From contig JAJXUA010000003.1 of the NCBI GenBank assembly GCA_021783275.1, positions 1-62,219 of the forward strand: 62,219 nucleotides of DNA. Direction: 5' to 3'. Below are positions 2,352-22,530 of this stretch, one piece after another. The notes under the pieces were generated by a model, which was not told the DNA's origin, searched no databases, and saw nothing but the letters and a program-made list of their open reading frames with translations. How positions within the stretch are numbered: position 1 is the stretch's first letter; every line of letters starts with the position of its first letter. Made by a program: the position numbers and the translations under genes. Source of the stretch: Pseudomonadota bacterium (GTDB lineage Bacteria > Pseudomonadota > Gammaproteobacteria > Burkholderiales > Thiobacillaceae).

Positions 2352-2380
2352 TGTCGATTTTGCCGGGTGTGCCCCGTCGT
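2352..2380 (+). promoter_or_regulatory. ECF42-type promoter, copy 1
   Basis: TGTCGA at 2352-2357, 17 bases, then CGTCGT at 2375-2380. The same two hexamers with the same spacing recur at 2851-2879 before the next DGPF gene. This resembles the published ECF42 target motif (TGTCGA at -35, CG-rich CGA/TC-like -10) as I recall it. The start codon is 41 bases downstream of the -10 element. Confidence 0.7.
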
Positions 2381-2421
2381 GGAAACAGGACACCCTTCGT
2401 CTGCCCCCCCGGGAGCACGCC

Positions 2422-2838
2422 ATGCGTTACCTGATCCTCGTCAAAGCCACGGCCGAATCCGCAGCCGAACCCCGTCCGGCAGCGCAAGCCGCATTTTTGA
2501 TCGCGATGACGCACTATCGCGACCAGCTGAACAAGGCGGGCGTCCTGCTCGATGGCAACAGCCTCAGACCCGGTTCGCACGGCTGCCGCATTCGCTACGA
2601 CGGCGATCAGCGCAGCGTCATCAACACGCCGTTTGCCAAAACCAGTGAATTGATCGCAGGCTATACCCTAATCCAGGTCAAAAGCCGCGAAGAAGCCCTG
2701 GAGTGGGCACGACGCCACCCCAATCCGTCGAGTCCGGGTCAACCCGCCGAAATTGAGATCCGTCAGCTGGATGAACTGGAAGACTTCGCGCCTTCCCGTT
2801 CAGTGGATTGCTACGACGAAACGGGGGCCACAAAATAA
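2422..2838 (+). CDS. YciI/DGPF-family protein with degenerate DGPF motif
   Basis: 138 residues starting MRYLILVKATAES. It is the ferredoxin-like YCII-related fold, often annotated COG3795 or DGPF-domain protein: an N-terminal beta strand, a helix with YRDQLNKAGVLLDG, then NSLRPGSHGCRIR, the motif position, ELIAGYTLIQVKSREEALEWARR, and an acidic tail EIEIRQLDELEDF. The DGPF tetrapeptide reads NTPF here, whereas the two paralogues at 2921 and 5368 keep DGPF. The biochemical role of the family is unknown. The gene is followed at 83 bp by a paralogue with its own promoter. Confidence 0.88.
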   Translation: MRYLILVKATAESAAEPRPAAQAAFLIAMTHYRDQLNKAGVLLDGNSLRPGSHGCRIRYDGDQRSVINTPFAKTSELIAGYTLIQVKSREEALEWARRHPNPSSPGQPAEIEIRQLDELEDFAPSRSVDCYDETGATK

Positions 2839-2850
2839 TTCGCGAGTCCG

Positions 2851-2879
2851 TGTCGATTTGCCCGAGGGTGGTTCGTCGT
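2851..2879 (+). promoter_or_regulatory. ECF42-type promoter, copy 2
   Basis: TGTCGA at 2851-2856, exactly 17 bases, CGTCGT at 2874-2879. The bases just after TGTCGA (TTTGCC) are also close to those of copy 1 (TTTTGCC). It lies in the 82-bp gap between two DGPF genes, 41 bases before the ATG at 2921, the same distance as for copy 1. Confidence 0.72.
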
Positions 2880-2920
2880 CATGACAGGCAGCCACATCTT
2901 CCCTATCAAAGGAGAACACC

Positions 2921-3349
2921 ATGCGTTTCATGATTATCATCAAAGCCAATGCCGAATCCGAGGCCGGTCAGATGCCGAGCGAGAAGCTGCTCGCCGACAT
3001 GGGCAACTACAACGAAGAACTGGTCAAGGCCGGCGTAATGCTGGCAGGCGAAGGCCTGCACCCAAGCAGCCGGGGCGCGCGCGTGCACTTTTCCCAAGGC
3101 CGCCGCACGGTCACTGACGGGCCGTTCACCGAAACCCGGGAGCTGATCGCGGGCTTCTGGATTTGGCAAGTCGGCTCGCTGGACGAGGCGATCGAATGGG
3201 TCAAACGCTGTCCCGACCCCTTCAACGGCGAATCCGACATCGAAATCCGCCAGATTTTCGAAGCGGAAGATTTCGGACCCGAGTTCACCCCCGAATTGCG
3301 CGCGCAGGAAGACCGGCTTCGTGCCGAGATGGCTGCGCAGCGCCCGTAG
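2921..3349 (+). CDS. YciI/DGPF-family protein
   Basis: 142 residues, preceded by a good ribosome site (AAAGGAG at 2908-2914). It begins MRFMIIIKANAESEAG and contains the signature TDGPFTETRELIAGFW, then the helix SLDEAIEWVKRCPDP and the strand EIEIRQIFEAEDFG. This is the canonical DGPF form, longer at the C terminus (RAQEDRLRAEMAAQRP) than the other two in the window. Function unknown; genes of this family are characteristically next to ECF42 sigma factors. It probably shares a transcript with the VOC gene 32 bp downstream. Confidence 0.9.
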   Translation: MRFMIIIKANAESEAGQMPSEKLLADMGNYNEELVKAGVMLAGEGLHPSSRGARVHFSQGRRTVTDGPFTETRELIAGFWIWQVGSLDEAIEWVKRCPDPFNGESDIEIRQIFEAEDFGPEFTPELRAQEDRLRAEMAAQRP

Positions 3350-3381
3350 TTTTCTACTGATGTTTTCGTAAGGAGCCGACC

Positions 3382-3849
3382 ATGAGTACCGTCCAACCCA
3401 TCCCTCAAGGCATGCACAGCCTCACGCCCCATCTCATCTGCCGCAACGCCAATGCGGCGATGGATTTTTACGTCAAGGCCTTTGGCGCACTCGATTGCGG
3501 TCGCCTGCCCGGCCCCGATGGCCGCCTCATGCACGGCATGATGTTCATCGGCGACTCCGCGCTGATGCTGTGCGACGAAATGCCGGAATGGAACACCTTG
3601 AGCCCCGCGTCGCTCAACGGCTCGCCGGTCGTGATTCATTTGTATGTCCCGGATGTCGATGCGTCGGTCACACGCGCAGTCGAGGCCGGAGCGACGCTCA
3701 CCATGCCGGTTTCCGATATGTTCTGGGGCGACCGCTACGGCCAGATTCAGGACCCGTACGGCCACCGCTGGTCGCTCGCCACCCATATCCGCGACATGAG
3801 CCCGGAAGACATTGCTGCTGCGTCGAAAGCCTCGCCGTGCGGAAATTGA
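3382..3849 (+). CDS. VOC-superfamily (glyoxalase/PhnB-like) protein
   Basis: 155 residues with AAGGAG at 3370-3375. The paired beta-alpha-beta-beta-beta fold of the vicinal oxygen chelate superfamily is visible as [61 protein letters not shown] and [23 protein letters not shown], the last resembling PhnB/COG2764 proteins. Members are enzymes or binding proteins on small molecules; the substrate is not deducible. VOC genes of this type commonly sit with DGPF genes, as here. Confidence 0.88.
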
Positions 3850-3877
3850 GTTCAACCATCACACAGGACACACCAAC

Positions 3878-4993
3878 ATGAATCGTATCCGGGTTCTGGT
3901 CGGCACGCGCAAGGGCGCGTTCATCCTCACGTCCGACGCCGCGCGCCGAGACTGGCAAGTGGCCGGGCCGTTTTTCGGCGGCTGGGAAATTTTCCATATC
4001 GCGGGTTCACCGGCCAATCCCGACCGGCTGTATGCCTCGCAAAGTTCGAGCTGGTTCGGCCAGGTCATCCAGCGCTCAGACGACGGCGGCGTGACCTGGA
4101 ACCCGGTCGGCAATGCATTCGCCTACGTCGGCGACCCCGGCACGCACCTGCATTACGACGGCACGCCGCGCCCGTGGGAATTCAAGCGCGTGTGGCATCT
4201 GGAGCCGTCGCCGACCGACCCGGACACGGTCTACGCCGGGGTCGAGGATGCCGCGCTGTTCCGCTCGACCGACGGCGGCGCGAGCTGGCACGAGTTGCCC
4301 GCTTTGCGCGAACAGCAGGGCGCGGCGTGGATGCCCGGCGCAGGCGGCATGTGCCTGCACACCATCCTGCTCGACCCGACCAATCCGCAGCGGATGTACG
4401 TCGCGATCTCGGCGGCGGGGGCGTTCCGCAGCGACGACAGCGGTGCGTCGTGGCGACCGATCAATCGCGGCCTGCAATCGCAATACATCCCCGACCCGGA
4501 AGCCGAAGTCGGGCATTGCGTCCATCGCATTGCGCTGCACCCGGCGCGCCCCGAAACGCTCTTCATGCAAAAGCACTGGGACGTGATGCGCAGCGACGAC
4601 GCGGGTGGCAACTGGCATGAGGTGAGCGGCAATCTGCCGAGTGATTTCGGCTTTGCGATGGTGGTGCACGCGCACGAACCCGACACGGTTTATGTCGTGC
4701 CCATCCTCTCCGATTCCGAGCACTATCCGCCCGAGGGCAAGCTGCGCGTGTATCGCAGCAAAAATGGCGGCAACGACTGGGACGCGCTGACCGACGGCCT
4801 GCCGCAGGAGCATTGCTATGTGAACATCCTGCGTGACGCGATGGCGGTCGATACCTTGCCCGAATGTGGCGTGTACTTTGGCACCACCGGCGGCCAGGTT
4901 TATGTGTCGGCAGATAGCGGCGACCACTGGCAGGCCATCGTGCGCGACCTGCCGGCGGTGCTCTCGGTGTCGGTGCAGACGCTGCCAGATTGA
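3878..4993 (+). CDS. Asp-box (BNR) beta-propeller protein, sialidase/VPS10-like
   Basis: 371 residues from the ATG at 3878, chosen because an AGGA precedes it and the upstream extension to 3812 overlaps the VOC gene and is not propeller-like. Six Asp-box hairpins are visible: RSDDGGVTW (about residue 66), RSTDGGASW (about 129), [27 protein letters not shown] and VSADSGDHW, so a six-bladed propeller is likely. There is no signal peptide, hence a cytoplasmic protein. Annotators often call such proteins exo-sialidase or glycosyl hydrolase, but no catalytic set of a sialidase is evident to me. Its stop is 7 bp before the MoaD/ThiS-like gene, so the two products are likely to act together. Confidence 0.85.
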
Positions 4994-5000
4994 ACCGGCC

Positions 5001-5306
5001 ATGCCCACGATCCGCGTCGTCCTGCCGTATCACCTGTACACGCTTGCGCAATGTGCCAGCACCGAGATCACGCTCGACCTCACCGGCCCGGTCACGCTCG
5101 GTAGCGTTCTCGACGCGCTTGAAACGGCCTACCCCATGCTTGTCGGGCTGATTCGCGACCACACCAGCGGTCTGCGCCGGCCCCTGATCCGGTTTTATGC
5201 GTGCCAGCAGGATCTCTCCCACATCGCGCTGGACACAGCCTTGCCCGAAGCGGTCGCAGCCGGGCATGAACCGCTGCTCATCGTCGGCGCAATCGCGGGT
5301 GGCTGA
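5001..5306 (+). CDS. MoaD/ThiS-like ubiquitin-fold protein ending in Gly-Gly
   Basis: 101 residues. It starts [16 protein letters not shown], has the [18 protein letters not shown] helix of the beta-grasp fold, and ends VGAIAGG. The exposed C-terminal Gly-Gly is the feature that is adenylated and thiocarboxylated in MoaD, ThiS and other sulfur carriers. No E1-like (MoeB/ThiF) gene is nearby. It follows the propeller gene by 7 bp. A sulfur-carrier or protein-modifier role is inferred; it is not a standard moaD because no molybdopterin genes are present. Confidence 0.85.
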
Positions 5307-5367
5307 CCACATGAAGCGGCGACGATCATGAGGCACAATCCGGTTTCTGATTCCCGCGGAGAACACC

Positions 5368-5724
5368 ATGCCCTACCTGTTCCTGATCGTTGAACCGCGC
5401 GGCCAGCGCGAAGCCCGCAATGAATCCGAAGCCCGTCAGGCGTACGACGACATGGTGCGTTACGGCGAATCGCTCGCTGAACAGGGGAAATTGCAGGCTG
5501 CCCAATCGCTGCGCCCCGACAAGTACGGGGTGCGCGTACAGGCACAGGAAGGCAGACCCATGCTGCGCGACGGCCCGTTTGCCGAAGCACGCGAAATGAT
5601 CGGCGGTTTTTTCATGGTGGACTGCGCCAGCATGGAAGAAGCGGTCGCACTTGCAGCGCAATGCCCGGCGGCACAGTGGGCGACGGTGGAAGTGCGCGAG
5701 ATTGCACCCTGCTACGCAAACTGA
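5368..5724 (+). CDS. YciI/DGPF-family protein, third paralogue
   Basis: 118 residues, CGGAGA ribosome site at 5356-5361. It starts MPYLFLIVEPRGQREA and carries RDGPFAEAREMIGGFFMVDCASMEEAVALAAQ, so the DGPF motif is intact. It is the most divergent of the three and the shortest. No TGTCGA-type promoter is seen in the 61 bp before it; it may be transcribed from the upstream promoters through the propeller and MoaD/ThiS-like genes. Function unknown. Confidence 0.88.
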   Translation: MPYLFLIVEPRGQREARNESEARQAYDDMVRYGESLAEQGKLQAAQSLRPDKYGVRVQAQEGRPMLRDGPFAEAREMIGGFFMVDCASMEEAVALAAQCPAAQWATVEVREIAPCYAN

Positions 5725-5817
5725 ATACCGGGACGATCCTTGGCGTGACGCATGAAAAACTTGCCCCGGCGAACGCACGCCATTACGCTTCTGCCTGATA
5801 CTCCTGACTGACCCATC

Positions 5818-6081
5818 ATGCAGCGCGCCGCCCTTGAAATCCTGCGTAGTGTGCGCCAGCGTCAATGCTGGCAAAACCTTGCGCGCGCGCGGGGAACCGA
5901 CACCGACGCCCTGTCGGTGAATCATTTCCGCAAACAGCGCCGTGTCGGGGGATGTGGTCACGCCCGCTGCTGGCTGTGTCATGCTGACAAGCTGGCGCAG
6001 CGGCCCAGTCCGCGCACCCGGCGCGCGTCGGATGCCTGGGCGGATAGCCTGCGCAGCCTCGATCCGGCCCGCCGTCCATGA
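5818..6081 (+). CDS. small Cys/His-rich protein with zinc-knuckle-like motif
   Basis: 87 residues, start ATG at 5818, stop overlapping the next gene's ATG as ATGA at 6078-6081. The first half is helical and basic (ALEILRSVRQRQCWQNLARARG). Then follows HFRKQRRVGGCGHARCWLCH, with C46, H48, C51, C54 and H55 spaced like a compact metal-binding knuckle, and a basic tail. It resembles the general class of short bacterial proteins with a basic helix and a CxxC knuckle that may bind nucleic acid, but I do not recognise a named family. Overlap and the same direction suggest it is co-translated with the 855-residue protein. The 93 bp before it (5725-5817) hold no clear promoter or repeat. Confidence 0.65.
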   Translation: MQRAALEILRSVRQRQCWQNLARARGTDTDALSVNHFRKQRRVGGCGHARCWLCHADKLAQRPSPRTRRASDAWADSLRSLDPARRP

Positions 6082-8645
6082 CGGCCTGGCCTGCGGCCAG
6101 CGACACCGAACCCGAGTGCATCGATCTGGCTGAAGACTTCGATGAACACCTGCTGCAACAGGTGTACACCGACATCTACCAACCAGCGTTTCCCATCCGC
6201 GACGAGCAGGAAGATCCGACCATCTGGACACCCCGGCTGCGCGATCCGCACGCCAATCCACATCTGTGTTTTCTGGTGCTGGGTCAACACTTGCGTGACC
6301 GCGAGCGCCGCAAACCCCAGGGCATGCTGCTCGCCGAATACTATGCCGCCAGCCAGTGTGTGCTGATCAGCTATGTGGCCGTGGATGAAACGCAGCGTGG
6401 CAAAGGCTTGGCACGAAAGCTGTTCGACGCCCTGCAACAGCGTTTGCATCTCTGGCAACAATCCGGCAGCCGCCCCGTCGTCGCCGTGCTGGCCGAAATC
6501 CACGACCCGGCGCTGACTCCGGCCACCCGTGATGTTCTCCCGCCACTGGCACGGCTGGAGGTCATGGCCCGGCTCGGTGGCAAGCGCATTCCTGTCGATT
6601 ACCTGCAACCGCCACTGAGCCAGACCCAGCTGGCCGCAGGCGGGCTCTGGCTGATTGCGTTTCCTGATCGGGTGATGCCTGCCCGCGCGCCCACCGTCGC
6701 ACAGATACGGCAATTCTTGCTGGAGTTTTACCGCGAACTCGGCAGCCCTGACCCGGAACAGGATCCGGTTTATACCGACACCTTCGCCAGCCTCAACACG
6801 CTCTCCGAGGGGACGATCGCCCTTGAACCGATGGTGGTGGTCGCTTCGACCCTGCGCCTGCACCAGGCTGCCGTGGCGCTGCAATACGCAGTGACGGGCT
6901 CGATTGAACCGGATGCCAAGTGCTGCCTGCCGCATGTGCCCTACTGCACGCACTATCACTCCTATGAAAAAGACCTGCTGTCACACGCGTTCCGCAATCC
7001 CCCGCCGGTACGCTCGTCCTGCGTGCCCAATATCCAGCGGCCTGATGGAGACCCCGCGTGCAGCGAGGATTATTTTCTGGAAGCCAAACTGCACCTGCCG
7101 ATGCGGCTGCGATTCATCACCGAGGGCGAAACGCTCGAACGCTATCGCCGGGGCGAACTCGTCCTGCCGGTGAAGCTGTCATTCAGCCGCAGCGATTTTC
7201 TGCAGTCGGATCGCACCATTTTCAATCTGGTCGTGCATATCGACACCCGCGCCAGCGGCGAGATATTCGGCGAGTACGAATTGCTGTGTCTGAGCAAGCA
7301 ATGGAGCGCTGCGGACGACAGCGAAGTGTGGCTGCACACCCAAGAGATCGAGGATGTCCGTTTCGAAATGATGGACAGCAACCCGCCTCGTTTCATGCGG
7401 CTGAACCAGCTCGCCAGCCACTACCTGAAGCTAAAACCCGAAGCCGCCCCTGTCGGAGGCTGCGTGCAGATCGTTTTCTGCGAAAAAGACGCTTGTCCGG
7501 ATATCTGCGCCCTGGATACAGAACAGGAGCCCATCCTGAGCCAGGAGCTGATCAACGCCCTGAACACGCTGCAACAGGAAAACACCGCACCGCCGGATCG
7601 CCTGCATCCTGCGCTGAATGCCGTCGGCTGTCTGCTGCAAAACATCCTTGATCTGGAAAATGTCGATCTCAACGAGCTGGAAGACATGCTCGATGGCGTC
7701 AACACCTCGCGCAGCGCAGTCACTGCCATTCACCGTAACACCCTGTTCGCGCTTACCGTCAACGACCGCCTGTTCGACGATCTGGCGTGCACCATCGGGA
7801 TGAGCCCCTACCTGCTGCTGCCGCAGGCTGCACTGCTGCACAACGAAGGCATCCTGCTCGATGCCAGTGCCCTGCTGCGCCAGATAGACGAAGTGACCGA
7901 AGCACTGGACGACACTGAGGAGTGTGATGTCATCCGCCGACGGCTGGTGGAGGGGGTACGACATGAAAAATTCGATGACCTGCCCGGCGGGCCGGATCAC
8001 CTGATCCGCTGGGTGGTGCGCTGGTTGTGGAAGCGTCACTACCGCAGCCGCAAGCTGAAACCTCGCCGCCGCTGGCGCGATGTCAACGTCTTCGCCGCCG
8101 AACTCGATCTTGCGATCAGGGAAGGCCTGGCCGCACATGCCCGCACCCGGCTGTCCACCCTGCTCGACCGCGACACCCTCGGCAATATTTTCCAGTACGT
8201 GTCGGAACGCTGGATTTTTGAGGAAGGCCAACGAGACCGTGGCCTCGACAGCCTGCTCGGGGTATTGCGCAAACGCATGCAGGACCTGGATACCATGCTG
8301 GAGTCGGCGGAAACCCGGCAATCCGACTGGCGCAACAGCAATTACACCGTGATCGGCCTGGTGTTCACGCTGTACACCGTGATTCCATTTGAGGGTACGC
8401 TCAAGCGTTTCGAGAAACTGAAAGCCGGCGACGACCTCAACTGGGCGGGCATCCTGCTGCTGGTCGGCGTCGGATTGGCACTCGTCACCAGCCTGCTGTG
8501 GCGGCGAATCATTGTGCTGATTTACCTGCCGGCGCTGGGTCATGTTGCCAGCAAGCTCGGCCCCCGTCCCCTGCTCGGGTTGAAACCCGATACTCCGCAC
8601 CCATCCGCTGCGCGAAAAACCCGCAAGCCCCTTAAAGCAGACTGA
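6078..8645 (+). CDS. large GNAT-domain protein with CorA-like two-helix membrane anchor
   Basis: 855 residues. An N-terminal GNAT acetyltransferase domain (about 15-240) has motif A VAVDETQRGKGLARKLFDAL near 101-119, with the R-x-x-G-x-A acetyl-CoA loop. A middle region has clustered cysteines and histidines (KCCLPHVPYCTHYHSYEK near 278-295, then SSCVPN and DPACSEDYF). The C-terminal part holds long helices (LGVLRKRMQDLDTMLESAETRQSDW) leading to two membrane helices at about 755-775 and 790-810 and a cytosolic tail. Helix bundle followed by two helices is the CorA-like architecture, but the GMN signature of CorA Mg channels is not present. I do not know a characterised protein with this order. 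Coupled to the zinc-knuckle gene upstream. Confidence 0.7.
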   Translation: MTAWPAASDTEPECIDLAEDFDEHLLQQVYTDIYQPAFPIRDEQEDPTIWTPRLRDPHANPHLCFLVLGQHLRDRERRKPQGMLLAEYYAASQCVLISYVAVDETQRGKGLARKLFDALQQRLHLWQQSGSRPVVAVLAEIHDPALTPATRDVLPPLARLEVMARLGGKRIPVDYLQPPLSQTQLAAGGLWLIAFPDRVMPARAPTVAQIRQFLLEFYRELGSPDPEQDPVYTDTFASLNTLSEGTIALEPMVVVASTLRLHQAAVALQYAVTGSIEPDAKCCLPHVPYCTHYHSYEKDLLSHAFRNPPPVRSSCVPNIQRPDGDPACSEDYFLEAKLHLPMRLRFITEGETLERYRRGELVLPVKLSFSRSDFLQSDRTIFNLVVHIDTRASGEIFGEYELLCLSKQWSAADDSEVWLHTQEIEDVRFEMMDSNPPRFMRLNQLASHYLKLKPEAAPVGGCVQIVFCEKDACPDICALDTEQEPILSQELINALNTLQQENTAPPDRLHPALNAVGCLLQNILDLENVDLNELEDMLDGVNTSRSAVTAIHRNTLFALTVNDRLFDDLACTIGMSPYLLLPQAALLHNEGILLDASALLRQIDEVTEALDDTEECDVIRRRLVEGVRHEKFDDLPGGPDHLIRWVVRWLWKRHYRSRKLKPRRRWRDVNVFAAELDLAIREGLAAHARTRLSTLLDRDTLGNIFQYVSERWIFEEGQRDRGLDSLLGVLRKRMQDLDTMLESAETRQSDWRNSNYTVIGLVFTLYTVIPFEGTLKRFEKLKAGDDLNWAGILLLVGVGLALVTSLLWRRIIVLIYLPALGHVASKLGPRPLLGLKPDTPHPSAARKTRKPLKAD

Positions 8646-8776
8646 ACCCCTGCGCCTGCCTGTCTGGGCCCGGGTCGATTTGATCCGGCGGCAGGTGTCA
8701 TCTCCCTGCCAGCACAGGAGTACAAGGCAAGAAAAATCCGGATCAGGCACGGCACGCTCGAATTACCGAATGCGGG

Positions 8777-10171
8777 TCAATGTCCCGCGTGACCCGTGGG
8801 CTTGCGCACCCGGACATTCGTATCGTCCGGTTTGCCAAGCGGCGAAGCCGACTCCGGCGCGCGTTCGGGAATCGGGGGGGGGCCTGCAGCTTCATGCGCG
8901 ATGCTGCCCGCTGGATGCGCGTACCAGCCGGGGTCGGAATAATCCCCCGGTTTCTGGTCGGCGCGTACTTTCAGGGTCGTGAACATGCCACCCATTTCGA
9001 TGGCACCGAATTGTCCCTGCCCGGCCATCATCGGCAGCGTGTTGTCGGGCAGCGGCATATTCATCTCGGCCATTTCCGCCATATCGGCCATGCCGCGTTC
9101 GCCCATCACCATGTAGTCGGGAATCAGCTTCGAGATTTTTTGCGCCAGCCCGGTGTGATCGACGCCGATCATGGTTGGCACGCCATGGCCCATCGCGTTC
9201 ATCGTGTGATGGCTTTTATGGCAGTGAAAACTCCAGTCGCCGGGTTCGTTGGCGATGAATTCGATCTGGCGCATCTGGCCGACGGCGACATCGGTCGTCA
9301 CCTCGGGCCAGCGTGCCGTCTTGGGCACCGGCCCACCGTCGGTGCCGGTGACTTCGAATTCGTGACCGTGCAGATGGATGGGGTGGTTGGTCATGGTCAG
9401 ATTGCCGATGCGGATGCGTACCCGGTCATTCAGCCGCACATTGAGGCTGTCGATACCGGGAAACGCGCGGCTGTTCCAGGTCCACAGATTGAAATCAAGC
9501 ATGGTGTTGACCGAAGGCGTGGCACTGCCCGGGTCGATGTCGTAAGCGTTCAGCAAAAAGCAGAAATCGCGGTCTACCGGGGCAATCAGCGGGTGCTGTG
9601 CGCGCGGATGGGTGACCCAGAAACCCATCATGCCCATGGCCATCTGCACCATTTCGTCAGCGTGCGGGTGATACATGAAGGTGCCGGGGCGACGCGCGGT
9701 GAATTCGTACACAAAGGTCTTGCCGGGCGGGATATGCGGCTGGGTCAGCCCGCCGATGCCGTCCATGCCGTTGGGCAGGCGCTGGCCGTGCCAGTGGACA
9801 GTGGTGTGCTCGGGCAGGCGATTGGTGACGAAAACCCGCACCCGGTCGCCTTCGACAACTTCGATGGTCGGCCCCGGCGACTGGCCGTTATAGCCCCACA
9901 AATGTGCCTTCATTCCGGGGGCGATTTCGCGCACCACGGGCTCGGCGACCAGATGAAATTCCTTGACGCCCGACTTCATCCGCCAGGGCAGGGTCCAGCC
10001 GTTCAGCGTCACTACCGGGTGATAGGGGCGTCCATTCGGCGGGTTCAGCGGGGGTCGGGTCGTCGCGCCGTCTTCGATGACGGGTTCGGGCAGGGCCGCC
10101 AGCGCTACGCTGCCGACACTGGCAGCGGCGAGGCCGCTTGCCATCTGGAAAAAATCACGTCTTGAGGTCAT
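8777..10171 (-). CDS. Tat-exported multicopper oxidase (copper oxidase)
   Basis: 464 residues. The N terminus SRRDFFQMASGLAAA is a twin-arginine signal. All four copper-binding blocks are visible: HWHG (about 126), HPHADEM (about 168), HPIHLHGHEF (about 261) and FHCHKSHHTM (about 315, type 1/type 3 ligands). A Met/Glu-rich stretch (GMADMAEMAEMNMP) and a C-terminal GHAGH could bind extra copper. Likely periplasmic cuprous or metal oxidase (CopA/CueO-like in role). Last gene of the minus-strand metal operon, 73 bp after the TolC-like gene. An inverted repeat at 8773-8796 (CGGGTCA/TGACCCG) spans the stop and may help end transcription. The 131-bp convergent gap to the upstream gene holds nothing else I can name. 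Confidence 0.92.
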   Translation of the reverse strand: MTSRRDFFQMASGLAAASVGSVALAALPEPVIEDGATTRPPLNPPNGRPYHPVVTLNGWTLPWRMKSGVKEFHLVAEPVVREIAPGMKAHLWGYNGQSPGPTIEVVEGDRVRVFVTNRLPEHTTVHWHGQRLPNGMDGIGGLTQPHIPPGKTFVYEFTARRPGTFMYHPHADEMVQMAMGMMGFWVTHPRAQHPLIAPVDRDFCFLLNAYDIDPGSATPSVNTMLDFNLWTWNSRAFPGIDSLNVRLNDRVRIRIGNLTMTNHPIHLHGHEFEVTGTDGGPVPKTARWPEVTTDVAVGQMRQIEFIANEPGDWSFHCHKSHHTMNAMGHGVPTMIGVDHTGLAQKISKLIPDYMVMGERGMADMAEMAEMNMPLPDNTLPMMAGQGQFGAIEMGGMFTTLKVRADQKPGDYSDPGWYAHPAGSIAHEAAGPPPIPERAPESASPLGKPDDTNVRVRKPTGHAGH

Positions 10172-10244
10172 GGGAGTCCTTGATTTTTAGGCGCGTGCGC
10201 CCTGTCAGGGTGAAAGCTGGAATAAAGAAATGTGCAAACTGTTT

Positions 10245-11675
10245 TCAGTGCCCGCCGCTCGTTTCATCTTGCGCTGCGCGCACCGGTTCCAGCGGTCGCG
10301 ACGCAGGTTTGCCGGCACGCGCCATCTGGAAGCTCGCGTCGGCAAGCCAGAAATCGCGCTGTGCGGCCAGCGCGGCATTGACCGCTGCGATTTGTGAACG
10401 CGCATCCGCCAGCAGTTCGAACACACTGGAGAGCATGCCGTTGTAGCGCAGCAGGGTTTCGTTCGAAATGCGTTTTTTGAGTGGCACGATCTCATCGGCA
10501 AAGTGCCGCGCCACAGCAAACTGCCCGGCGCGAGCGGCATAGGCTTCGCGTACTTCGGAGCGTGCGTCGATGGCGGCACCCCGCGCGGTTTCGAGCGCGC
10601 GCAGGTAGCGCGCCTCGGCGTTGGCAATCCGCGTCTGGCCAAAATCGAACAGCGGCAATTCGAAACTGATTTCATAGCCGCGCTGCTGCGGTTCGGTATT
10701 CGAGCCGTTGTTGATGACGCCCACATCGAGTGCGCCGGGCTCAAGCACGTTGATCAGGCGTGTGCGCCGCGCAAGGCCGAGGTTCGCCGCCAGCGTGTCA
10801 ACCTCGAAACGCAGCGTCTGCAAATCTATGCGGCTGTCGAGCGCCTGTTGCTCGGCGTCGGGCAAGGCGGGCAAGGTCGCAGGCAAATCCGGCAGGCGTT
10901 CGGGCAGTCTGACGCGGCTGCCGTCAGCCAGTCCCAGGCGCCGCACCAGGCGTTCACGCGCCTGGGTGCTGGCGAGTTCTGCCTGCGCGGCGGCAAGCGC
11001 CGTATCGGCGTAGAACGCCTGTTCGCGTGCCTGTTTGAGCGCGCTCCAGTTACCGACTGCGCGCATCCGCTGCGCGAGCGTCGCACTCGCTTCGGCCGCG
11101 TCGAGCGCCTGGCGCTGATACGACAGGGATTGCGCTGCTGCGACCGCATCGATCCAGGCGCGGCGGGTGGCGTCGGCAAGCGTCAGGATTTCCAGCGCAA
11201 CCGCGCGCCGCGTCTGTTCGAACTGGCGTGCACCTATCCGGGTAGTCAGCGGCAAGGCCAGCAGGCGTGCCAGATCGAGGTGCAGGCTGCGTTCCCATTC
11301 GATCTCGCCACCGCGCACCAGCCGACCGATCGTCAATCCCGGGTTGGGCAAGCGGCCGGCCGCCACGCGCTCGGCGTCGGCCAGCGCAAGCGACTGGAAT
11401 GCGGCTTGTACGCTGGGGTTGTTGAGCAGCGCGAGCTGCACGGCAGCGTCTGCATCAAGCGGCTGCGCCAGCAGGGTATCGACGCGCGCCTGAATGTCGG
11501 CGCGCTGTTCGTCGGTATGCGCCGGGATCAGCGTTTGCGTCAGAAAAGGTCTGGTCTCGGCACGCAATGCGTCGAGGCCACGCTCAGGCGCGAGGCTCGC
11601 ACACCCGGACAACACCGCGAGCGAAAGCAAGGCAGGCAGCGCCCGACGTGGCAGCCGCGATTCAATGATCGGCAT
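10245..11675 (-). CDS. TolC-family outer membrane efflux lipoprotein
   Basis: 476 residues from the ATG at 11673-11675, chosen because GGGAGG precedes it and it gives a lipoprotein signal with the lipobox LSGCAS. The rest is the helical TolC duplication (for example DADAAVQLALLNNPSVQAAFQSL and RYNGMLSSVFELLADARSQIAAVNAALAAQRDFWLADA). It overlaps the small His-rich gene upstream by 14 bp. Paired with a multicopper oxidase, this is a common copper-resistance arrangement; no RND pump is on this strand, so it may serve another pump or act on periplasmic metal directly. Confidence 0.88.
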   Translation of the reverse strand: MPIIESRLPRRALPALLSLAVLSGCASLAPERGLDALRAETRPFLTQTLIPAHTDEQRADIQARVDTLLAQPLDADAAVQLALLNNPSVQAAFQSLALADAERVAAGRLPNPGLTIGRLVRGGEIEWERSLHLDLARLLALPLTTRIGARQFEQTRRAVALEILTLADATRRAWIDAVAAAQSLSYQRQALDAAEASATLAQRMRAVGNWSALKQAREQAFYADTALAAAQAELASTQARERLVRRLGLADGSRVRLPERLPDLPATLPALPDAEQQALDSRIDLQTLRFEVDTLAANLGLARRTRLINVLEPGALDVGVINNGSNTEPQQRGYEISFELPLFDFGQTRIANAEARYLRALETARGAAIDARSEVREAYAARAGQFAVARHFADEIVPLKKRISNETLLRYNGMLSSVFELLADARSQIAAVNAALAAQRDFWLADASFQMARAGKPASRPLEPVRAAQDETSGGH

Positions 11676-11964
11676 GGTCGCCTCCCTGCGGGACTTGGGT
11701 TGCGCTTCCAGGGTGTGCATGACCATGGTGTGCGTGGCCAGCCGCCCCGGATTCGTCCATCAAGGCGCGCCAGCCTCCGACATGTCCAACGCGCTGATTC
11801 GCCGCGCGCCAGTCGATGGCTGCGGGCTGTGTGTCGCTCATGTAACCGGGAACGATGCTTGAAACGGTGTCCGGACAGGGTGCCGGGCAGGACTCGGCGT
11901 GGGCCGCCAAAGACGTGGCAAACGATGCGGCCAGCACCACGCGGAATAGATAGGGGTATCGCAT
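11662..11964 (-). CDS. small periplasmic His-rich metal-binding protein
   Basis: 100 residues from the ATG at 11962-11964, which begins MRYPYLFRVVLAASFATSLA, a signal peptide with probable cleavage after AHA. Longer frames to 12267 run into the DUF2946-like gene and are not supported. The mature part contains CPAPC and a C-terminal HAHHGHAHP and DHADH metal-binding tail. Probably a periplasmic copper or zinc buffer. Its end overlaps the TolC-like start by 14 bp. Confidence 0.75.
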   Translation of the reverse strand: MRYPYLFRVVLAASFATSLAAHAESCPAPCPDTVSSIVPGYMSDTQPAAIDWRAANQRVGHVGGWRALMDESGAAGHAHHGHAHPGSATQVPQGGDHADH

Positions 11965-12041
11965 GAAAACCTCGATGTCGGGCGATCCCGGGGGGATCGC
12001 GCACACGGAACAGCGGCTACAGACGCAACCGCACGTAAGGC

Positions 12042-12479
12042 TCAGTCGAGATTGAAGCGAGGGGGTCGGTCGAGTACCGAGGGCAGGAAATCGAAAGACA
12101 CCGCATCCGCTGTTCCGCCATACAAGGCTGCAAACGCGCTGAATGCTGGCATATTGCCCGTCAGCAATCCGGGGGCAAGCAGGCAGGCTGCGCAGTGTTG
12201 GCAGCCCGAGTCCCATGCGTGCTCGGCGTCCGGAGCGGGGTTGTCGGGCGTGGCCGCAGTGTGGCATGCCATCATCGCAGTCGCGTCCACGTCCGGGGCG
12301 GCGGCAGGCTGTGGGATATTCCCCGCTTGCGCATTACCCGCTTGCGCATTACCCGCTTGCCATGGGATGGCCGATGTCTGCGCCATTCCCGCGCACGCGA
12401 CATGCGAGATTGCCGCCCACGCCTGCCAGGGCAGGAGCAGCATCAATAACACGCAGAGGTAACGGCGCAGACGCAACAT
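12042..12479 (-). CDS. DUF2946-like exported protein with 15-bp internal repeat
   Basis: 145 residues with a signal peptide (LRLRRYLCVLLMLLLPWQAWA). After it come an Ala-rich segment, a tandem repeat QAGNAQAGNAQAGN, then MACHTAA, CQHCAACL and a hydrophobic C-terminal end. The CxxCxxC and His pattern after a LLPWQ-type leader matches the loosely conserved DUF2946 group found beside czc/cop genes. Role unknown, probably periplasmic metal handling. First gene of the minus operon, divergent from the CzcI-like gene. Confidence 0.7.
   Translation of the reverse strand: MLRLRRYLCVLLMLLLPWQAWAAISHVACAGMAQTSAIPWQAGNAQAGNAQAGNIPQPAAAPDVDATAMMACHTAATPDNPAPDAEHAWDSGCQHCAACLLAPGLLTGNMPAFSAFAALYGGTADAVSFDFLPSVLDRPPRFNLD
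12326..12360. repeat. 15-bp tandem repeat inside the DUF2946-like gene
   Basis: Two exact copies of CTTGCGCATTACCCG (12326-12340 and 12341-12355) plus the first five bases of a third. It keeps frame and codes for the QAGNA units on the minus strand. Confidence 0.85.
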
Positions 12480-12629
12480 GGAGAATGATTATCCGGCAAA
12501 ACTCTGATCTCAGGCAGCAGAGGGACTACAAAGTTCCAGCTGGCGGGCTGTTGAAATGGTGTTCCTGGCATGCTCTCCTGTTTTAACTGCGTGCGGAACT
12601 TGCGTTGCCGATATAGAATCCGACCCACC
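12480..12629. promoter_or_regulatory. divergent promoter region between the two metal operons
   Basis: 150 bp between divergent start codons. On the plus side a TATAGAAT at 12613-12620 lies 10 bp before the CzcI-like ATG and could be a -10 element, giving a very short leader. No strong dyad for a MerR or ArsR operator was found by eye. No regulator gene (CzcR/S, CopR/S) is in the island, so control must come from elsewhere. Confidence 0.4.
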
Positions 12630-13046
12630 ATGCGCCGCCGGGTATCCCTGTTCCTGCTGATTCTGCTGCCGTTCCAGTTTGTCTGGGCGGGGGTCGGTGC
12701 ATACATCGTGCATGACGCAGGTGCGGCGTCGTTTCATTACGGCGACCACGAGCATCCGGTCAACGCGCACCACACCGACCCGAACATGGCGACAGGCGCG
12801 GGACCAGACCTTCCCCATCCGGTGCCATCCGGAGGCGATCATGCCGCGCACGCATCGGATTGCACCTGCGGTGATTGTGACGACTGTAGCCATGACGTTC
12901 ACGCGCACTTTGTCGCTGTCGCGTGCGAGTCGTTCACCCCGTCTTCATTTGCTGTTACGCGCGGCATTGCGATGCCCTCGCGGACACGGCTGGACACCGC
13001 GCCACCCACACGCCCCGAACGCCCCAACTGGCGTATGCCCGCCTGA
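12630..13046 (+). CDS. CzcI-like exported His/Cys protein
   Basis: 138 residues from the ATG at 12630, which gives MRRRVSLFLLILLPFQFVWA, a signal peptide of the type seen in CzcI and related small proteins at the head of czc operons. The mature part has HYGDHEHPVNAHHTDP and a cysteine cluster DCTCGDCDDCSHDVHAH, likely metal ligands. Role in metal sensing or buffering is inferred from position. It starts the plus-strand czc set, 217 bp before czcC. Confidence 0.72.
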   Translation: MRRRVSLFLLILLPFQFVWAGVGAYIVHDAGAASFHYGDHEHPVNAHHTDPNMATGAGPDLPHPVPSGGDHAAHASDCTCGDCDDCSHDVHAHFVAVACESFTPSSFAVTRGIAMPSRTRLDTAPPTRPERPNWRMPA

Positions 13047-13111
13047 CCCGGCGGGACAGTTTCGCCCCCTCCTCTCCGAAAAATCCTGAGCCAGGCGTGA
13101 ATGCAGGCTGT

Positions 13112-13127
13112 GTGACGCGCGCGTCAC
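13112..13127. promoter_or_regulatory. 16-bp perfect palindrome upstream of czcC
   Basis: GTGACGCGCGCGTCAC reads the same on both strands. It lies 137 bp before the czcC start in a 217-bp gap. It may be an operator or a hairpin separating the CzcI-like gene from czcCBA. No known regulator is assigned. Confidence 0.5.
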
Positions 13128-13263
13128 CCCTGTTCATTGCACTGAGCAGGTCTCTGCGGCCTGCATGATTTTTCATGGATCGAGTGGGTGCACGCGTCAG
13201 ATCGCGTGCGCCAGCGGGCGTGCCGTGTTTCGCCGGATTCAATCTGTTGACCCGGAGAATTCG

Positions 13264-14709
13264 ATGCGATGTCACCTTTTGCCGCTGGGCCTGGCGGTAG
13301 CGTTTTTCAGCCCCTTTTCCGCCTTGCCCCTGCACGCGGCTCCCGTTGACGCCGCCGCTGCACGCGATTCCGTCACGCACACCGGCGTCACCGAGCCGCA
13401 GGGCGAGCTCACGCTGGCGTCTGCCCACGCGCTGGCGCTCGCCGCCAACCCGACGCTGGCCGCCGCTGCACGCGAGATCGATGCGCGCGAGGCGGCGATC
13501 CGGCAAGCGGGCGTGTGGCGCAATCCCGAGCTGTCAGTGCTGATGGAAGACACGCGCAACGCGACCCGCCAGACCACGCTGCAAATCGATCAGCCGCTCG
13601 AACTCGGTGGCAAACGCGCAGCGCGGATCGGCGCTGCGGAACAGGGCCGCGACGGAGCTACCGCCGAGCTCGACGCGCAGCGTCTGGACTTACGCGCGAC
13701 GGTGAAAGCCGCGTTTTATGAGGTGCTGGTCGCGCAGGAAAAACAGCGTCTGGCACTGGCCACGGTCGAGCTCGCGCAGCGCGCGACGCACGCCGCGTCC
13801 CGAAGAGTGACGGCCGGCAAGGTCTCGCCGGTCGAAGCCACCCGCGCGCGGATCGCCGAAGCCAGCGCAGGGATCGATCTGGCGCAGGCCGACAGCGAGC
13901 TCGCCCGCGCGCGCCTTGCGCTCGCGGCGACCTGGGGCAGTCACGCGCCGCGTTTCGCACGCGTCGAGGGCGATCTGCAGACGCTGCCGCCGCAGTCCGA
14001 AATGTCCGAGTTGCAGAGTCGTCTGCACGATTCGCCCGCCCTGCGGCGCGCGCGCATCGAAGTCGAACAGCGGCTCGCACTGACACGCATCGAAACCAGC
14101 CGCCGCCTCCCTGACGTGACGCTCAGCCTCGGCGCACGGCGCAACGAAGAGCTGGGGCTCAACCAGGCGATTTTGGGCGTCTCGGTGCCGCTACCCGTGT
14201 TCGACCGCAACCGGGGCAACGTGCTCGAAGCCGAACACCGCAGCGACAAGGCGCGCGACGAACTGCGCGCGACCGAGGTGAGGCTGGCGGGTAAACTGAT
14301 GTTTGCCCACGCGCAGATGAACGCCGCGCACGGTGCGCTCGAAGCGCTGCAACGCGACATCCTGCCCGGCGCGCAGAGCGCCTACGACGCCGCAACACAA
14401 GGTTTCGAGGCGGGCAAGTTCAGCTTTCTCGACGTGCTCGACGCGCAACGCACGCTGTTCGCCGCACGCGCCCAACACCTGCGTGCGCTGGCCGACGTGC
14501 ATCGCGCCGCGACCGACATCGAACGCCTGATCGACGACGCGACGCCCGAGCCCGTCGCAGTGAAAACGCCCGCCGCTGGGATAACACCCCACGCGCCGCA
14601 GGCTGCCGCACCCGGTCTGCCCGCAACGCCGCTGAGCGCAAGCCAGCAGTCAAGCCCGTCCGCTGAAACCCGCACCGATGTGGCCGCTCCCGGCGCCACC
14701 CACCCGTAG
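13264..14709 (+). CDS. czcC: CzcC-type outer membrane factor of RND metal efflux
   Basis: 481 residues from the ATG at 13264 with GGAGAA upstream; it gives a signal peptide ending near ALPLHAAP. The TolC fold is seen as two repeats starting ELTLASAHALALAANPTLAAAAREIDAREAAI and continuing with long helices to AARAQHLRALADVHRAATDIERLI. A Pro/Ala-rich tail follows (about 60 residues). It forms the outer membrane channel of the tripartite pump with the next two genes, 9 bp upstream of czcB. Symbol by operon position and family. Confidence 0.88.
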   Translation: MRCHLLPLGLAVAFFSPFSALPLHAAPVDAAAARDSVTHTGVTEPQGELTLASAHALALAANPTLAAAAREIDAREAAIRQAGVWRNPELSVLMEDTRNATRQTTLQIDQPLELGGKRAARIGAAEQGRDGATAELDAQRLDLRATVKAAFYEVLVAQEKQRLALATVELAQRATHAASRRVTAGKVSPVEATRARIAEASAGIDLAQADSELARARLALAATWGSHAPRFARVEGDLQTLPPQSEMSELQSRLHDSPALRRARIEVEQRLALTRIETSRRLPDVTLSLGARRNEELGLNQAILGVSVPLPVFDRNRGNVLEAEHRSDKARDELRATEVRLAGKLMFAHAQMNAAHGALEALQRDILPGAQSAYDAATQGFEAGKFSFLDVLDAQRTLFAARAQHLRALADVHRAATDIERLIDDATPEPVAVKTPAAGITPHAPQAAAPGLPATPLSASQQSSPSAETRTDVAAPGATHP

Positions 14710-14718
14710 GAACGCGCC

Positions 14719-19453
<4,735 letters not shown>

Positions 19454-19460
19454 CGCCAGC

Positions 19461-20768
19461 ATGTTCGCCGCTTTCTTCGCCCACCCGCTCGCCCGCAACC
19501 GCGATTTCCGCCTGCTGTTCTCGGCGCAGGTCATCTCGCTCGTCGGCAGCGGGGTGACGACGGTCGGGCTCGCGCTATTCGCGCACCAGCTGGTCGGCGG
19601 CGACTCGGCGGCGACCGTGATCGGCATCGCGCTGATGCTGCGCATCCTCGCGTTCCTGCTGTTTGCGCAGTTCGCCGGGGTGCTGGCGGACCGGGTCAAC
19701 CGCAAGCACCTGCTGATCGCGGCGGACCTGCTGCGCTTCGCCCTGTTGGCCTTGTTTCCGCTGATCGACAGGGTGTGGCAGGTCTATGCGATGATTTTTC
19801 TGATCAACGCGGCGACGGCGTTTTTCACGCCGACCTTCGACGCGACGATGCCGCAGGTCGCCGGGCGCGCGCACTACGTGCAGGCGCTGTCCCTATCCAG
19901 GGTGGCGGTCGATCTGGAGGCGATGGCCGCACCGCTGCTCGCCGGGTTGCTGTTCGCGTGGCTGGGGCTCGCGTGGTTGTTCTGGTTCGACGCAGCGAGT
20001 TATTTGCTGTCTGCCGCGCTGGTGCTGGCGAGCCATTTACGCCCCGTGGCCAAGGTGTCGCCCGTGCCGTCGCCAGCGCGGTCGCTCGCCGCCTTCGTGC
20101 GCGAACTCGGCGCCGGCGCGCGCGTGCTGCTGCGCGAAGCGGCGTTGCGGCGCGCGCTGATCCTGAGCTTCGTCGAAGCGACCGCCGGCGCGGCGGCGAT
20201 TGTCGCGACCGTGGTCTACGTGCGCGACGTACTGCATCTCGGCGAGTCCGCGTTCGTGTTCGCCATGGCCGCGGCCGGTGTCGGCTCGACCGTCGCCGCG
20301 CTGCTGCTCGGGCGCGCGACCGGACGCTATGAATCCGGCGCGGCGACGGTCACCCAGCTGCACGGCCTGCGCCACCGCTGGACCGAGCGCGCGTTAATCG
20401 TCGGCGGCTGCGTGCTCGGCGCGGCCTTGCTGCCGGGTATCCTACAACCGCCGCTGTGGCTGTTCGCGGCACTGTGGCTGCTGAACGGCGCGGGGCAGGC
20501 GCTGATCGCGATTCCCTCGGCCACACTGCTCGCCGAACACACCACCGAGGCCAACCGCGGCCGCGCCACCGCCGCATATTTCGCGCTCACCCACGCGTTC
20601 TGGCTCGTCACCTATCCGGCGATGGGTGTCGGCGCGAGCCAATTGGGTGTACCGCTGAGCTTCACTGTCGCGGGCGCGCTGTGCCTGCTGCTGACACTGG
20701 CGGTGTGGTGGACGCGCACGCCAGTGCAGGCGCATAGCCACGACGGGGCGAGGGATGCCCGCGCGTGA
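19461..20768 (+). CDS. MFS transporter
   Basis: 435 residues, about 12 hydrophobic helices, starting 8 bp after czcA, so co-transcribed. N terminus HPLARNRDFRLLFSAQVISLVGSGVTTVGLALFAHQL and loop DRVNRKHLLIAADLLRFALL (between helices 2 and 3) are typical of the MFS_3/enterobactin-exporter group. Substrate unknown; in this setting a metal-chelate or metallophore export role is possible but not shown. Confidence 0.85.
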   Translation: MFAAFFAHPLARNRDFRLLFSAQVISLVGSGVTTVGLALFAHQLVGGDSAATVIGIALMLRILAFLLFAQFAGVLADRVNRKHLLIAADLLRFALLALFPLIDRVWQVYAMIFLINAATAFFTPTFDATMPQVAGRAHYVQALSLSRVAVDLEAMAAPLLAGLLFAWLGLAWLFWFDAASYLLSAALVLASHLRPVAKVSPVPSPARSLAAFVRELGAGARVLLREAALRRALILSFVEATAGAAAIVATVVYVRDVLHLGESAFVFAMAAAGVGSTVAALLLGRATGRYESGAATVTQLHGLRHRWTERALIVGGCVLGAALLPGILQPPLWLFAALWLLNGAGQALIAIPSATLLAEHTTEANRGRATAAYFALTHAFWLVTYPAMGVGASQLGVPLSFTVAGALCLLLTLAVWWTRTPVQAHSHDGARDARA

Positions 20769-20881
20769 TGCCGCAAGTGAAACTCACCGTACCGCCGCCT
20801 GCGCGGCGAACCAGGAATTCAGGGGCATGCACCCAGCGTGCCCTGAATGCAGTGCCCTCAACCCACTTCAAAGGAAACCCC

Positions 20882-21118
20882 ATGAAAAAAACTCTTCCCC
20901 TGCTGCTGACTCTCTTCATCGCACCGGCCTTTGCCCACAGCGATCACGCGCACGACGACAGCGTGAGCAAGCCGCCCAAGCGCGCCGCGAGCGCGGCCAA
21001 ACCGGAACCGAAAGTCACGCCGCCCGCCGCCGTCAATAAAGCCGCCGTCAATAAAGCCAAGGCGGCAGCGGAAACGCCCGCTGAAACCACGCCTGCAAGT
21101 GACGCCAAACAGCCATGA
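20882..21118 (+). CDS. small exported His/Lys-Ala protein
   Basis: 78 residues from ATG 20882 with AAAGGAA upstream. Signal peptide MKKTLPLLLTLFIAPAFA, then HSDHAHDD as the mature N terminus, a possible metal site. The rest is low-complexity Ala/Lys/Pro with a duplicated AVNKA. Its stop overlaps the next ATG (ATGA at 21115-21118). No family recognised; likely a periplasmic metal-binding peptide working with the HupE-like protein. Confidence 0.6.
   Translation: MKKTLPLLLTLFIAPAFAHSDHAHDDSVSKPPKRAASAAKPEPKVTPPAAVNKAAVNKAKAAAETPAETTPASDAKQP
21026..21055. repeat. 15-bp tandem duplication in the small exported protein gene
   Basis: Two exact copies of GCCGCCGTCAATAAA, in frame, coding for AAVNK twice. 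Confidence 0.85.
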
Positions 21119-21813
21119 ACGAGCGGGCGATCAACTTCGCCCGTGCCCTGCTGCTGACCCTGCCCGCCGTGCTGTGGGCCGGGGCGGCAGCCGCGCACGG
21201 CGTAGCCGAGGGCGACAAGAGCTTTCTGCAAGCGGCGAGCGGGATGCAGCTGCTGCCGTATCTCTATCTCGGCGCCAAACACATGGTCACCGGCTACGAC
21301 CATCTGCTGTTCCTGTTCGGGGTGATTTTCTTTCTCTACCGGATGAAGGACATCGGGCTTTACGTCACGCTGTTCGCGGTCGGCCACAGCACCACCCTGC
21401 TGTTCGGCGTGCTCTCCGGCACCCACGTGAACCCGTATCTGATCGACGCGATCATCGGCCTGTCAGTCGTCTACAAGGCGTTCGACAACCTCGGCGGTTT
21501 CCAGCGCGTATTCGGCGTGCAGCCCGACACGCGCGCGGCGGTGCTGATCTTCGGCTTCTTCCACGGCTTTGGCCTCGCGACCAAATTGCAGGATTTTTCA
21601 CTCTCGCCCGACGGCCTGATTCCCAATATGCTGGCGTTCAACGTAGGCGTCGAAATCGGCCAGTTGCTCGCACTCGCCGCGATCCTGATCGCGATGAGTT
21701 TCTGGCGTCGTACGCAGGCCTTCACCCGCCAGGCCTTCGCCGCCAACGTGCTGTTGATGAGCGCCGGTTTCGTCCTCACGGGCTACCAGCTCACCGGCTA
21801 TTTCCAGACTTGA
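21115..21813 (+). CDS. HupE/UreJ-like metal permease
   Basis: 232 residues with a signal peptide (ALLLTLPAVLWAGAAAAHG) and about six membrane helices. Conserved His motifs of HupE/UreJ_2 are visible: GAKHMVTGYDHLLFLFG, LFAVGHSTTLL and FGFFHGFGLATKLQDF. Characterised HupE/UreJ proteins move nickel or cobalt for hydrogenase or urease; neither enzyme is in this window, so a nickel/cobalt or other metal role here is inferred. Overlaps the small exported gene upstream by 4 bp. Confidence 0.85.
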   Translation: MNERAINFARALLLTLPAVLWAGAAAAHGVAEGDKSFLQAASGMQLLPYLYLGAKHMVTGYDHLLFLFGVIFFLYRMKDIGLYVTLFAVGHSTTLLFGVLSGTHVNPYLIDAIIGLSVVYKAFDNLGGFQRVFGVQPDTRAAVLIFGFFHGFGLATKLQDFSLSPDGLIPNMLAFNVGVEIGQLLALAAILIAMSFWRRTQAFTRQAFAANVLLMSAGFVLTGYQLTGYFQT

Positions 21814-21836
21814 TGACCGGATTTGAAGGATCGACC

Positions 21837-22406
21837 ATGACCACGCATACGCTCCACGCCACCACCCCGCAACTACTCAAGGCCACCGCAGCAGCAGCAG
21901 TCATCGCCGCCGCTGTACTCGTCAGCGCCGTCCTGCCCGCCGAATATGGCATCGACCCGACCGGCATCGGCGGCGCGCTCGGCCTGACCGCGCTGCACGC
22001 CGCCAACATGCCCGCTGAAACCGATGTGCTGCTGCCCAAAGCGGGCGCAAATGCTGCTGCTGAGCCGGTCATCGCCTTCGACGTGCCGTATCGCAATGGC
22101 GAAATGACGCTGACGCTGGCACCCAGCGAAGGCGCGGAGATCAAAGCCAAAATGCTCGAAGGCGAATCGCTGGTGTTCAGCTGGACCAGCAGCGGCCCGG
22201 TCAGCTTCGACATGCACGGCGACCACATGGACGGCACCGACGCCTTCACCAGCTACTGGAAAGACCGTGACCAGACGGCAGCGCACGGCAGCCTCGTCGC
22301 GCCGTTCAAAGGCGCGCACGGCTGGTACTGGCACAACAAGGGCGCGACCCCGGTGACGGTGACGGTCAAGGCGAGCGGGTATTTCGAGGCGCTGTACCGG
22401 CCCTGA
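21837..22406 (+). CDS. membrane-anchored periplasmic protein of the HupE cluster
   Basis: 189 residues from the ATG at 21837, chosen for the GAAGGA site at 21823-21828. One N-terminal helix (ATAAAAVIAAAVLVSAVLPAEYG), then a periplasmic domain with VPYRNGEMTLTLAPSEGAEIKAKM and the His-rich SFDMHGDHMDG and HGWYWHNKG, resembling a cupredoxin-like strand pattern. Commonly annotated only as a transmembrane anchor protein. It follows HupE by 23 bp, so a periplasmic metal donor or acceptor is likely. Confidence 0.7.
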   Translation: MTTHTLHATTPQLLKATAAAAVIAAAVLVSAVLPAEYGIDPTGIGGALGLTALHAANMPAETDVLLPKAGANAAAEPVIAFDVPYRNGEMTLTLAPSEGAEIKAKMLEGESLVFSWTSSGPVSFDMHGDHMDGTDAFTSYWKDRDQTAAHGSLVAPFKGAHGWYWHNKGATPVTVTVKASGYFEALYRP

Positions 22407-22498
22407 GCCAATCCTGTGCCCATAGGCTCGGGTTTCGCATCCTGCGCACTCTTCGCAACACAGCGCGGCCCCACATGGGAACACAGCTGTGCATGCTT

Positions 22499-22530
22499 GA
22501 GTCGGACAGCAAATGTCCGGGGACTGACTC
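22499..22530. other. nested stem-loop in the gap after the HupE cluster
   Basis: Outer arms GAGTC (22499-22503) and GACTC (22526-22530) enclose inner arms GGACA (22504-22508) and TGTCC (22514-22518) with an asymmetric bulge. No T-run follows, so it is not a classical terminator. The rest of the 196-bp gap has no clear promoter. Confidence 0.4.

Follow-up and report, generated by a model that had tools for sequence, protein, structure and literature searches.

The 62-kb window (the whole stretch of 62,219 nucleotides that was analysed) carries two ECF42-type promoters, P1 and P2, in front of consecutive YCII-family (DGPF) genes, and the gene for an ECF42-type sigma factor far to their right. 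The reading that we favor, with a probability of roughly 0.8, is that these are parts of one ECF42 regulon, in which the sigma acts on P1, P2 and a third promoter on contig C155 of the same draft genome, and that the sigma gene has been severed from its operon by an insertion of about 14 kb of metal genes. P1 and P2 would be read by RNA polymerase carrying the 22980–24263 sigma and would drive DGPF1 and the gene run from DGPF2 to the GNAT gene, with the C155 copy driving an AHSA1/SRPBCC gene. The sigma gene would once have closed the same locus, beside grpE-dnaK-dnaJ, as it does in most sigma-bearing relatives; a metal-resistance-type block would then have inserted at the junction of operon and sigma gene, destroying a DUF1428 gene, and the sigma would still work in trans on all three promoters.

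The DGPF operon and the sigma factor gene

The putative operon occupies positions 2422 to 8645 and is transcribed rightwards (+ strand throughout). DGPF1 (2422–2838, 138 aa) and DGPF2 (2921–3349, 142 aa) score 49 and 81 bits against PF03795 (cut-off 24), and a third member of the family, DGPF3 (5368–5724, 118 aa, 69.9 bits), has the DGPF signature and is without a motif of its own. A first-pass annotation of this DNA had described P1 and P2 as preceding consecutive DGPF genes, and both genes do belong to the YCII family; the namesake signature is intact in DGPF2, but DGPF1 has NTPF at that place, unlike its sigma-linked relatives, which have DGPF, and may be losing its usual function. Genes for a glyoxalase/VOC-fold protein (3382–3849), a BNR/Sortilin-like repeat protein (3878–4993) and a small protein that is MoaD/ThiS-like by inspection only and lacks a Pfam match (5001–5306) lie between DGPF2 and DGPF3, and all three are probably part of the same operon, the first to judge from its spacing. 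To the right of DGPF3 are a small conserved gene (5818–6081), which also precedes the GNAT-TM gene in genomes G038 and G081, and GNAT-TM itself (6078–8645), whose 855-residue product has an N-terminal GNAT domain identified by domain search and a hydrophobic C-terminus, with no Pfam or NCBIfam match beyond the GNAT domain. A relative of GNAT-TM is located directly before the sigma gene in G038, and a PhnB-like gene lies between the two in G081. The operon is a mosaic: the BNR protein groups with those of the type-B clusters of other Thiobacillus, G038 and G034 (support 98/95 in the BNR tree), and the type-B sigma clade (100/100) does not include the window's sigma, whose position among the type-A sigmas is not settled by the tree; operon and sigma therefore need not share one history.

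The sigma gene (22980–24263, + strand) encodes an ECF42-type protein of 427 aa with sigma2 and sigma4 regions and a DUF6596/TPR-like C-terminal extension. Matches to Sigma70_r2 (PF04542), Sigma70_r4_2 (PF08281) and TIGR02937 are all over cut-off, and the tail of about 250 residues after sigma4 matches DUF6596 with 131 bits. The description of this gene in the first-pass annotation, ECF42-like with a TPR-like tail, is thus sustained for sigma2, sigma4 and DUF6596; the TPR matches are weak and below the Pfam cut-offs, leaving the TPR-like character of the tail tentative. Searches of Pfam and NCBIfam gave no match to an ECF group, and the protein fits ECF42 by its domain make-up, by the neighbours of its relatives and by its promoter, the candidate targets having the TGTCGA/G–17 bp–CGTC form, a likeness in sequence only. 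The ECF42 trait of an immediate YCII/DGPF neighbour is absent, with the nearest such gene, DGPF3, 17.3 kb upstream, although this is a trait of the neighbourhood and not of the sigma protein. The best named database match is from a Thiobacillus MAG (78%), and the protein is 66–69% identical to seven sigmas from Achromobacter, Myxococcus, Nonomuraea, Bosea, Geothrix, a Chloroflexi MAG and a Symbiobacteriaceae MAG, and 49–51% identical to two sigmas of its own order; the database search finds ECF42 sigmas in many phyla. Six solved structures matched by the sigma cover the ECF core at most. It is the sole ECF42-like gene found in the draft genome, the other match being 23% identical over the ECF core.

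Arrangement of sigma and DGPF genes

Separation of the sigma gene from DGPF genes is unusual. Among the best 80 of at least 587 database sigma loci, some of them cut near the sigma gene, 65 extend at least 3 kb to both sides, and a YCII gene lies within 3 kb of sigma in 61 of these 65 and within 1 kb in 57. A similar picture emerges from a set of 56 genomes, assembled from 47 + 8 relatives for the genus of the window's genome (Thiobacillus), in which 20 genomes have the sigma (17 at an E-value of 1e-60, a cut-off that short fragments may escape, and three more at 1e-20; the sigma genes of G008 and G083 are cut) and 36 were scored without it. A DGPF gene lies no more than 3.4 kb upstream of sigma in 16 of the 20 (15 within 3 kb, and G038 at 3.4 kb); in two of the other four, G031 and G083, the contig ends too soon to tell, and the remaining two, G081 and the window's genome, are split. 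The earlier remark that the sigma gene is not adjacent as usual is therefore borne out. In the linked relatives the sigma gene sits downstream within the target locus, with a DUF1428 gene directly upstream of it in 8 of the 16, one gene further away in 3 and not seen in 5.

Five of the linked genomes (G026, G044, G005, G045 and G087) share a layout that we refer to as type A, in which GT39, TM and GT2 genes pointing away are followed by DGPF1, VOC, DGPF3, a second VOC, DUF1428, sigma, grpE, dnaK and dnaJ, with a PhnB-like gene before sigma in two genomes; motifs are located before DGPF1 and, in four genomes by our own gene calls, before VOC. G016 has the type-A left side and different genes past sigma, from which the surroundings of the sigma gene seem prone to insertions. 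The genes right after sigma in G016 (contig C11, locus L122, 10320–19001), which replace the type-A grpE-dnaK, are phage-like by eye. G081, a genome in nine contigs that is 100% complete, has its sigma gene at the grpE locus and a motif-bearing DGPF cluster on another contig (L181 and L182, on C7 and C8), and no motif was found before the genes at the sigma site; it is a second, natural split in Thiobacillus.

The window shares the flanks of this layout, GT39-TM-GT2 on the left and grpE-dnaK-dnaJ on the right, with the five type-A genomes and G081. Between operon and sigma gene lies a metal-resistance-type block of 14 kb (8777–22823, both strands), in which leftwards-transcribed genes for a multicopper oxidase and an outer-membrane efflux protein (OEP), the two on the opposite strand, are followed by rightwards-transcribed genes for OEP/HlyD/RND efflux, an MFS protein, a HupE-like protein and a GDCCVxC protein, so that from 13279 to 22823 the block is on the same strand as sigma. 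The GDCCVxC gene is of the (seleno)protein type. DNA resembling the block is found elsewhere in many relatives, among the matches listed, and is absent between the DGPF genes and sigma in all 16 linked genomes.

Between GNAT-TM and the block, a 52-bp segment (8723–8774, + strand) aligns to DUF1428 genes in the orientation expected of a former neighbour of sigma, with a best score of 44 (G033) that is reached by none of 500 shuffles (maximum 32) and none of 248 window segments (maximum 33), although no tblastn match was seen there at an E-value below 1 among those listed. The left junction thus fits an insertion that removed DUF1428, and the remnant would be its left scar. No corresponding scar was found by alignment at the right junction, none of the direct or inverted repeats listed fits the insertion ends, and no transposase was recognised by eye among the open reading frames of the gene-poor stretch from 11.7 to 13.3 kb.

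The same data bear on two other accounts of the split. In one, the sigma gene was never part of this operon in this lineage and the DGPF operon arrived separately, so that the distance would stem from two sources instead of an insertion, with the sigma perhaps acting on the sites nonetheless. G081, where sigma lies by grpE and the DGPF genes are on another contig, offers a precedent, and the nesting of the BNR protein with G038 and G034, set beside a sigma outside the type-B clade, points the same way. However, the operon, divergent from GT2 and with grpE downstream, is at the chromosomal site where five linked relatives have it by both flanks and G016 by the left flank, and the DUF1428 remnant follows GNAT-TM; we regard separate arrival as rather unlikely. 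The second account, that an error of assembly or binning joined unrelated pieces and the split is an artefact, draws on the state of the draft genome (2.53 Mb in 201 contigs, of which C118 is that of the window; 92.58% complete with 5.16% contamination), but a second split occurs in the nine-contig, complete genome of G081, and as relatives have the left and the right flank together at a single locus, two misjoins would be needed to restore synteny, making an artefact very improbable.

ECF42-type promoters and their distribution

The motif TGTCGA-N17-CGTCGT occurs twice in the window as first described, exactly and with the 17-bp spacer, and both times 41 bases separate its end from the ATG (at 2422 and 2921). 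P1 (2352–2380, + strand) has its −35 element TGTCGA at 2352–2357 and its −10 element CGTCGT at 2375–2380, and P2 (2851–2879, + strand) lies in the 82 bp that separate DGPF1 from DGPF2. By analogy with the S. meliloti RpoE10 promoters, the P1 transcript is expected to start near 2387, and its spacing and CGTC element are as in the promoters listed in PMC6180224. P1 and P2 are the only places in the 62-kb window that match with at most one mismatch, but this count is weak by itself because chance yields a mean of 0.50 such matches and at least two in 8 of 100 shuffles.

A stronger separation comes from a matrix of 47 columns built from 35 distinct sites, all from other genomes and located 20–115 bases upstream of called genes, on which P1 scores 34.7 bits and P2 34.3, with nothing else in the window, on either strand, above 3.3. 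Sigma-bearing members of the genus supplied 33 of the sites, and the other two come from G018, which was scored without sigma, and from G077, which belongs to a different genus; L040, the same locus as that of G036, was excluded. Selection was by the pattern TGTCG[AG]-N17-CGTC and those columns are conserved by construction, all 35 sites reading TGTCGA and 31 going on as CGTCGT. The assignment of P1 and P2 as ECF42-type promoters is thus supported by position, the other-genome matrix and conservation across the genus, and not by the raw motif count.

The genome scan proposed in the first-pass annotation gives three exact sites in the draft genome, P1, P2 and C155:5838–5866. The reversed pattern used as a control likewise matches three times, and when one mismatch is allowed the motif has 14 matches versus 23 for the control, and raw genome counts were dropped as evidence. 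The C155 site scores 24.9 bits on the same matrix, and 51 bases separate it from the ATG of a gene whose 148-residue product has an AHSA1 domain (103.9 bits); the proposal that the window holds a complete regulon fails at this point. The search for orthologues of this AHSA1 protein found them in 18 genomes, and a spacer-17 motif precedes them in 7 of 10 sigma-bearing genomes (the window's included) versus none of 7 without sigma (Fisher p = 0.0098, relatedness ignored; the eighth of the latter, in G082, is cut and was excluded). The orthologues of sigma-bearing G026 and G032 are without the motif, and the G081 site departs from it, with a spacer of 16 or a changed −10.

Across the genus the excess of the motif tracks the presence of sigma. 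The 20 sigma-bearing genomes have 44 exact matches versus 7 for reversed-pattern controls, and the 36 genomes scored without sigma have 16 versus 12; for a shorter pattern ending in CGTC the numbers are 139 versus 96 with sigma and 153 versus 151 without, all uncorrected for relatedness. Forty of the 44 could be placed in loci (the other four, and three of the 16, are outside the loci examined), some through an identical 29-mer in a sister genome and those of G037 only in that way. The first-pass annotation had named a motif common before unrelated genes as grounds against its reading, and this was not what the scan showed; 35 of the 40 placed sites have a YCII, glyoxalase-fold or AHSA1 gene 26–107 bases downstream, a count in which some genes were named by eye and the C155 site is included, and five are not. 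Of the 13 placed sites in genomes scored without sigma, two precede genes of such clusters: G018 (83% complete) has an exact motif before a DUF1428-VOC-DGPF cluster (L185, on G018:C369), and the site of G037 (86% complete) was placed through a 29-mer that it shares with G028. At the level of the genus, the consensus TGTCGA-N17-CGTCGT lists the likely regulon, namely DGPF, glyoxalase-fold and AHSA1 genes, with DUF1428 genes in the same clusters. That both window motifs are chance matches, with the DGPF genes transcribed by another sigma, is scarcely credible given the matrix scores, the agreement of the two sites in spacing and in distance to the gene, and the association seen across the genus, even if 8 of 100 shuffles contain two matches and the exact count in the genome equals its control.

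Two further occurrences of the motif were seen in relatives. G016, G005 and G044 have one more YCII gene away from the sigma cluster (L177, L179 and L180), its signature reading DGPL or DGPW, with the motif 26 bases upstream of the called start in G016 and G005 and with a spacer of 16 in G044. The type-A cluster of G026 (contig C3; L120, 10200–10480) has an exact motif before a short open stretch in which no gene is called.

Transcription of the sigma gene

The region upstream of the sigma gene (22400–22990, + strand) contains no ECF42 motif, the best matrix score being −10.4, and autoregulation through a motif of its own was rejected. The first-pass annotation had noticed this absence and suggested that the sigma might not be autoregulated; the absence is confirmed, but it is no ground for a loss of autoregulation, as the 180 bp before the matched sigma start contain a motif in none of the 80 database ECF42 loci described above (the best of at least 587), and a sigma gene without the motif is the rule. 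By the strict pattern, a motif precedes the YCII gene in 31 of these 80. What does make such a loss plausible is the 14 kb, with two opposite-strand genes, between promoters and sigma. Where the loci are linked, RNA started at the DGPF promoters could extend into the sigma gene and provide feedback; in the window's genome, read-through from P1 and P2 would no longer feed sigma synthesis because the 14 kb and the two genes intervene, and the sigma gene would therefore have to be transcribed from another promoter.

A crude scan of the + strand from 20700 to 25200 found no terminator-like and no sigma-70-like promoter site. Since the block is on the same strand as sigma from 13279 onwards and no such site was seen, read-through into sigma from the metal genes is possible. 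We speculate that the insertion may even have rewired the circuit, such that copper or another metal induces a sigma formerly located behind its own target promoters, and although we consider this improbable, it would mean that a self-feeding stress switch has become metal-driven.

Comparison with other ECF42 systems

One of the closest known systems is RpoE10 of Sinorhizobium meliloti, an ECF42 sigma (PMC6180224). Its promoters are TGTCGG-N17-CGTC, and it upregulates glyoxalase-like proteins and a protein with a predicted hydrophobic-ligand-binding function; some of its targets are encoded on another replicon. The sigma of the window is similar in its long C-terminal extension, TGTCG-type N17 CGTC promoters and candidate glyoxalase-like targets, with TGTCGA in place of TGTCGG at the −35 element; the literature search returned no paper that pairs ECF42 with TGTCGA. 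The arrangements differ, in that a YCII gene adjoins the sigma gene in S. meliloti whereas 17 kb separate the window's sigma from the last DGPF gene. Two DGPF genes of the window have sites; the motif of the S. meliloti YCII gene overlaps its start, yet that account does not find it raised by sigma overexpression, and RpoE10 apparently does not activate its own expression or its YCII-sigma operon. DGPF genes therefore need not respond in every species.

A review (PMC8999054) describes ECF42 sigmas as having a TPR-rich C-terminal extension of about 200 residues and a YCII protein in the neighbourhood, and names as members Sven_0747, Sven_4377 and Sven_7131 of Streptomyces venezuelae and ECF-10 of Pseudomonas putida. 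These resemble the window's sigma in the C-terminal extension, a likeness drawn from their description and not from loci or promoters. The reviews, in the parts covered, name no signal for ECF42 sigmas. The split layout is derived, within a family that has published targets away from the sigma gene. Because linked, split and sigma-free genomes occur within one genus, Thiobacillus can show whether linkage to DGPF genes, or feedback, is needed for function. The five type-A loci are like that of the window in their flanks, promoters, homologous DGPF and VOC genes and sigmas (76–79% identical). In them the stretch from the nearest DGPF gene to sigma is about 1 kb long and holds VOC, DUF1428 and sometimes PhnB-like genes, where the window has GNAT-TM and the metal block.
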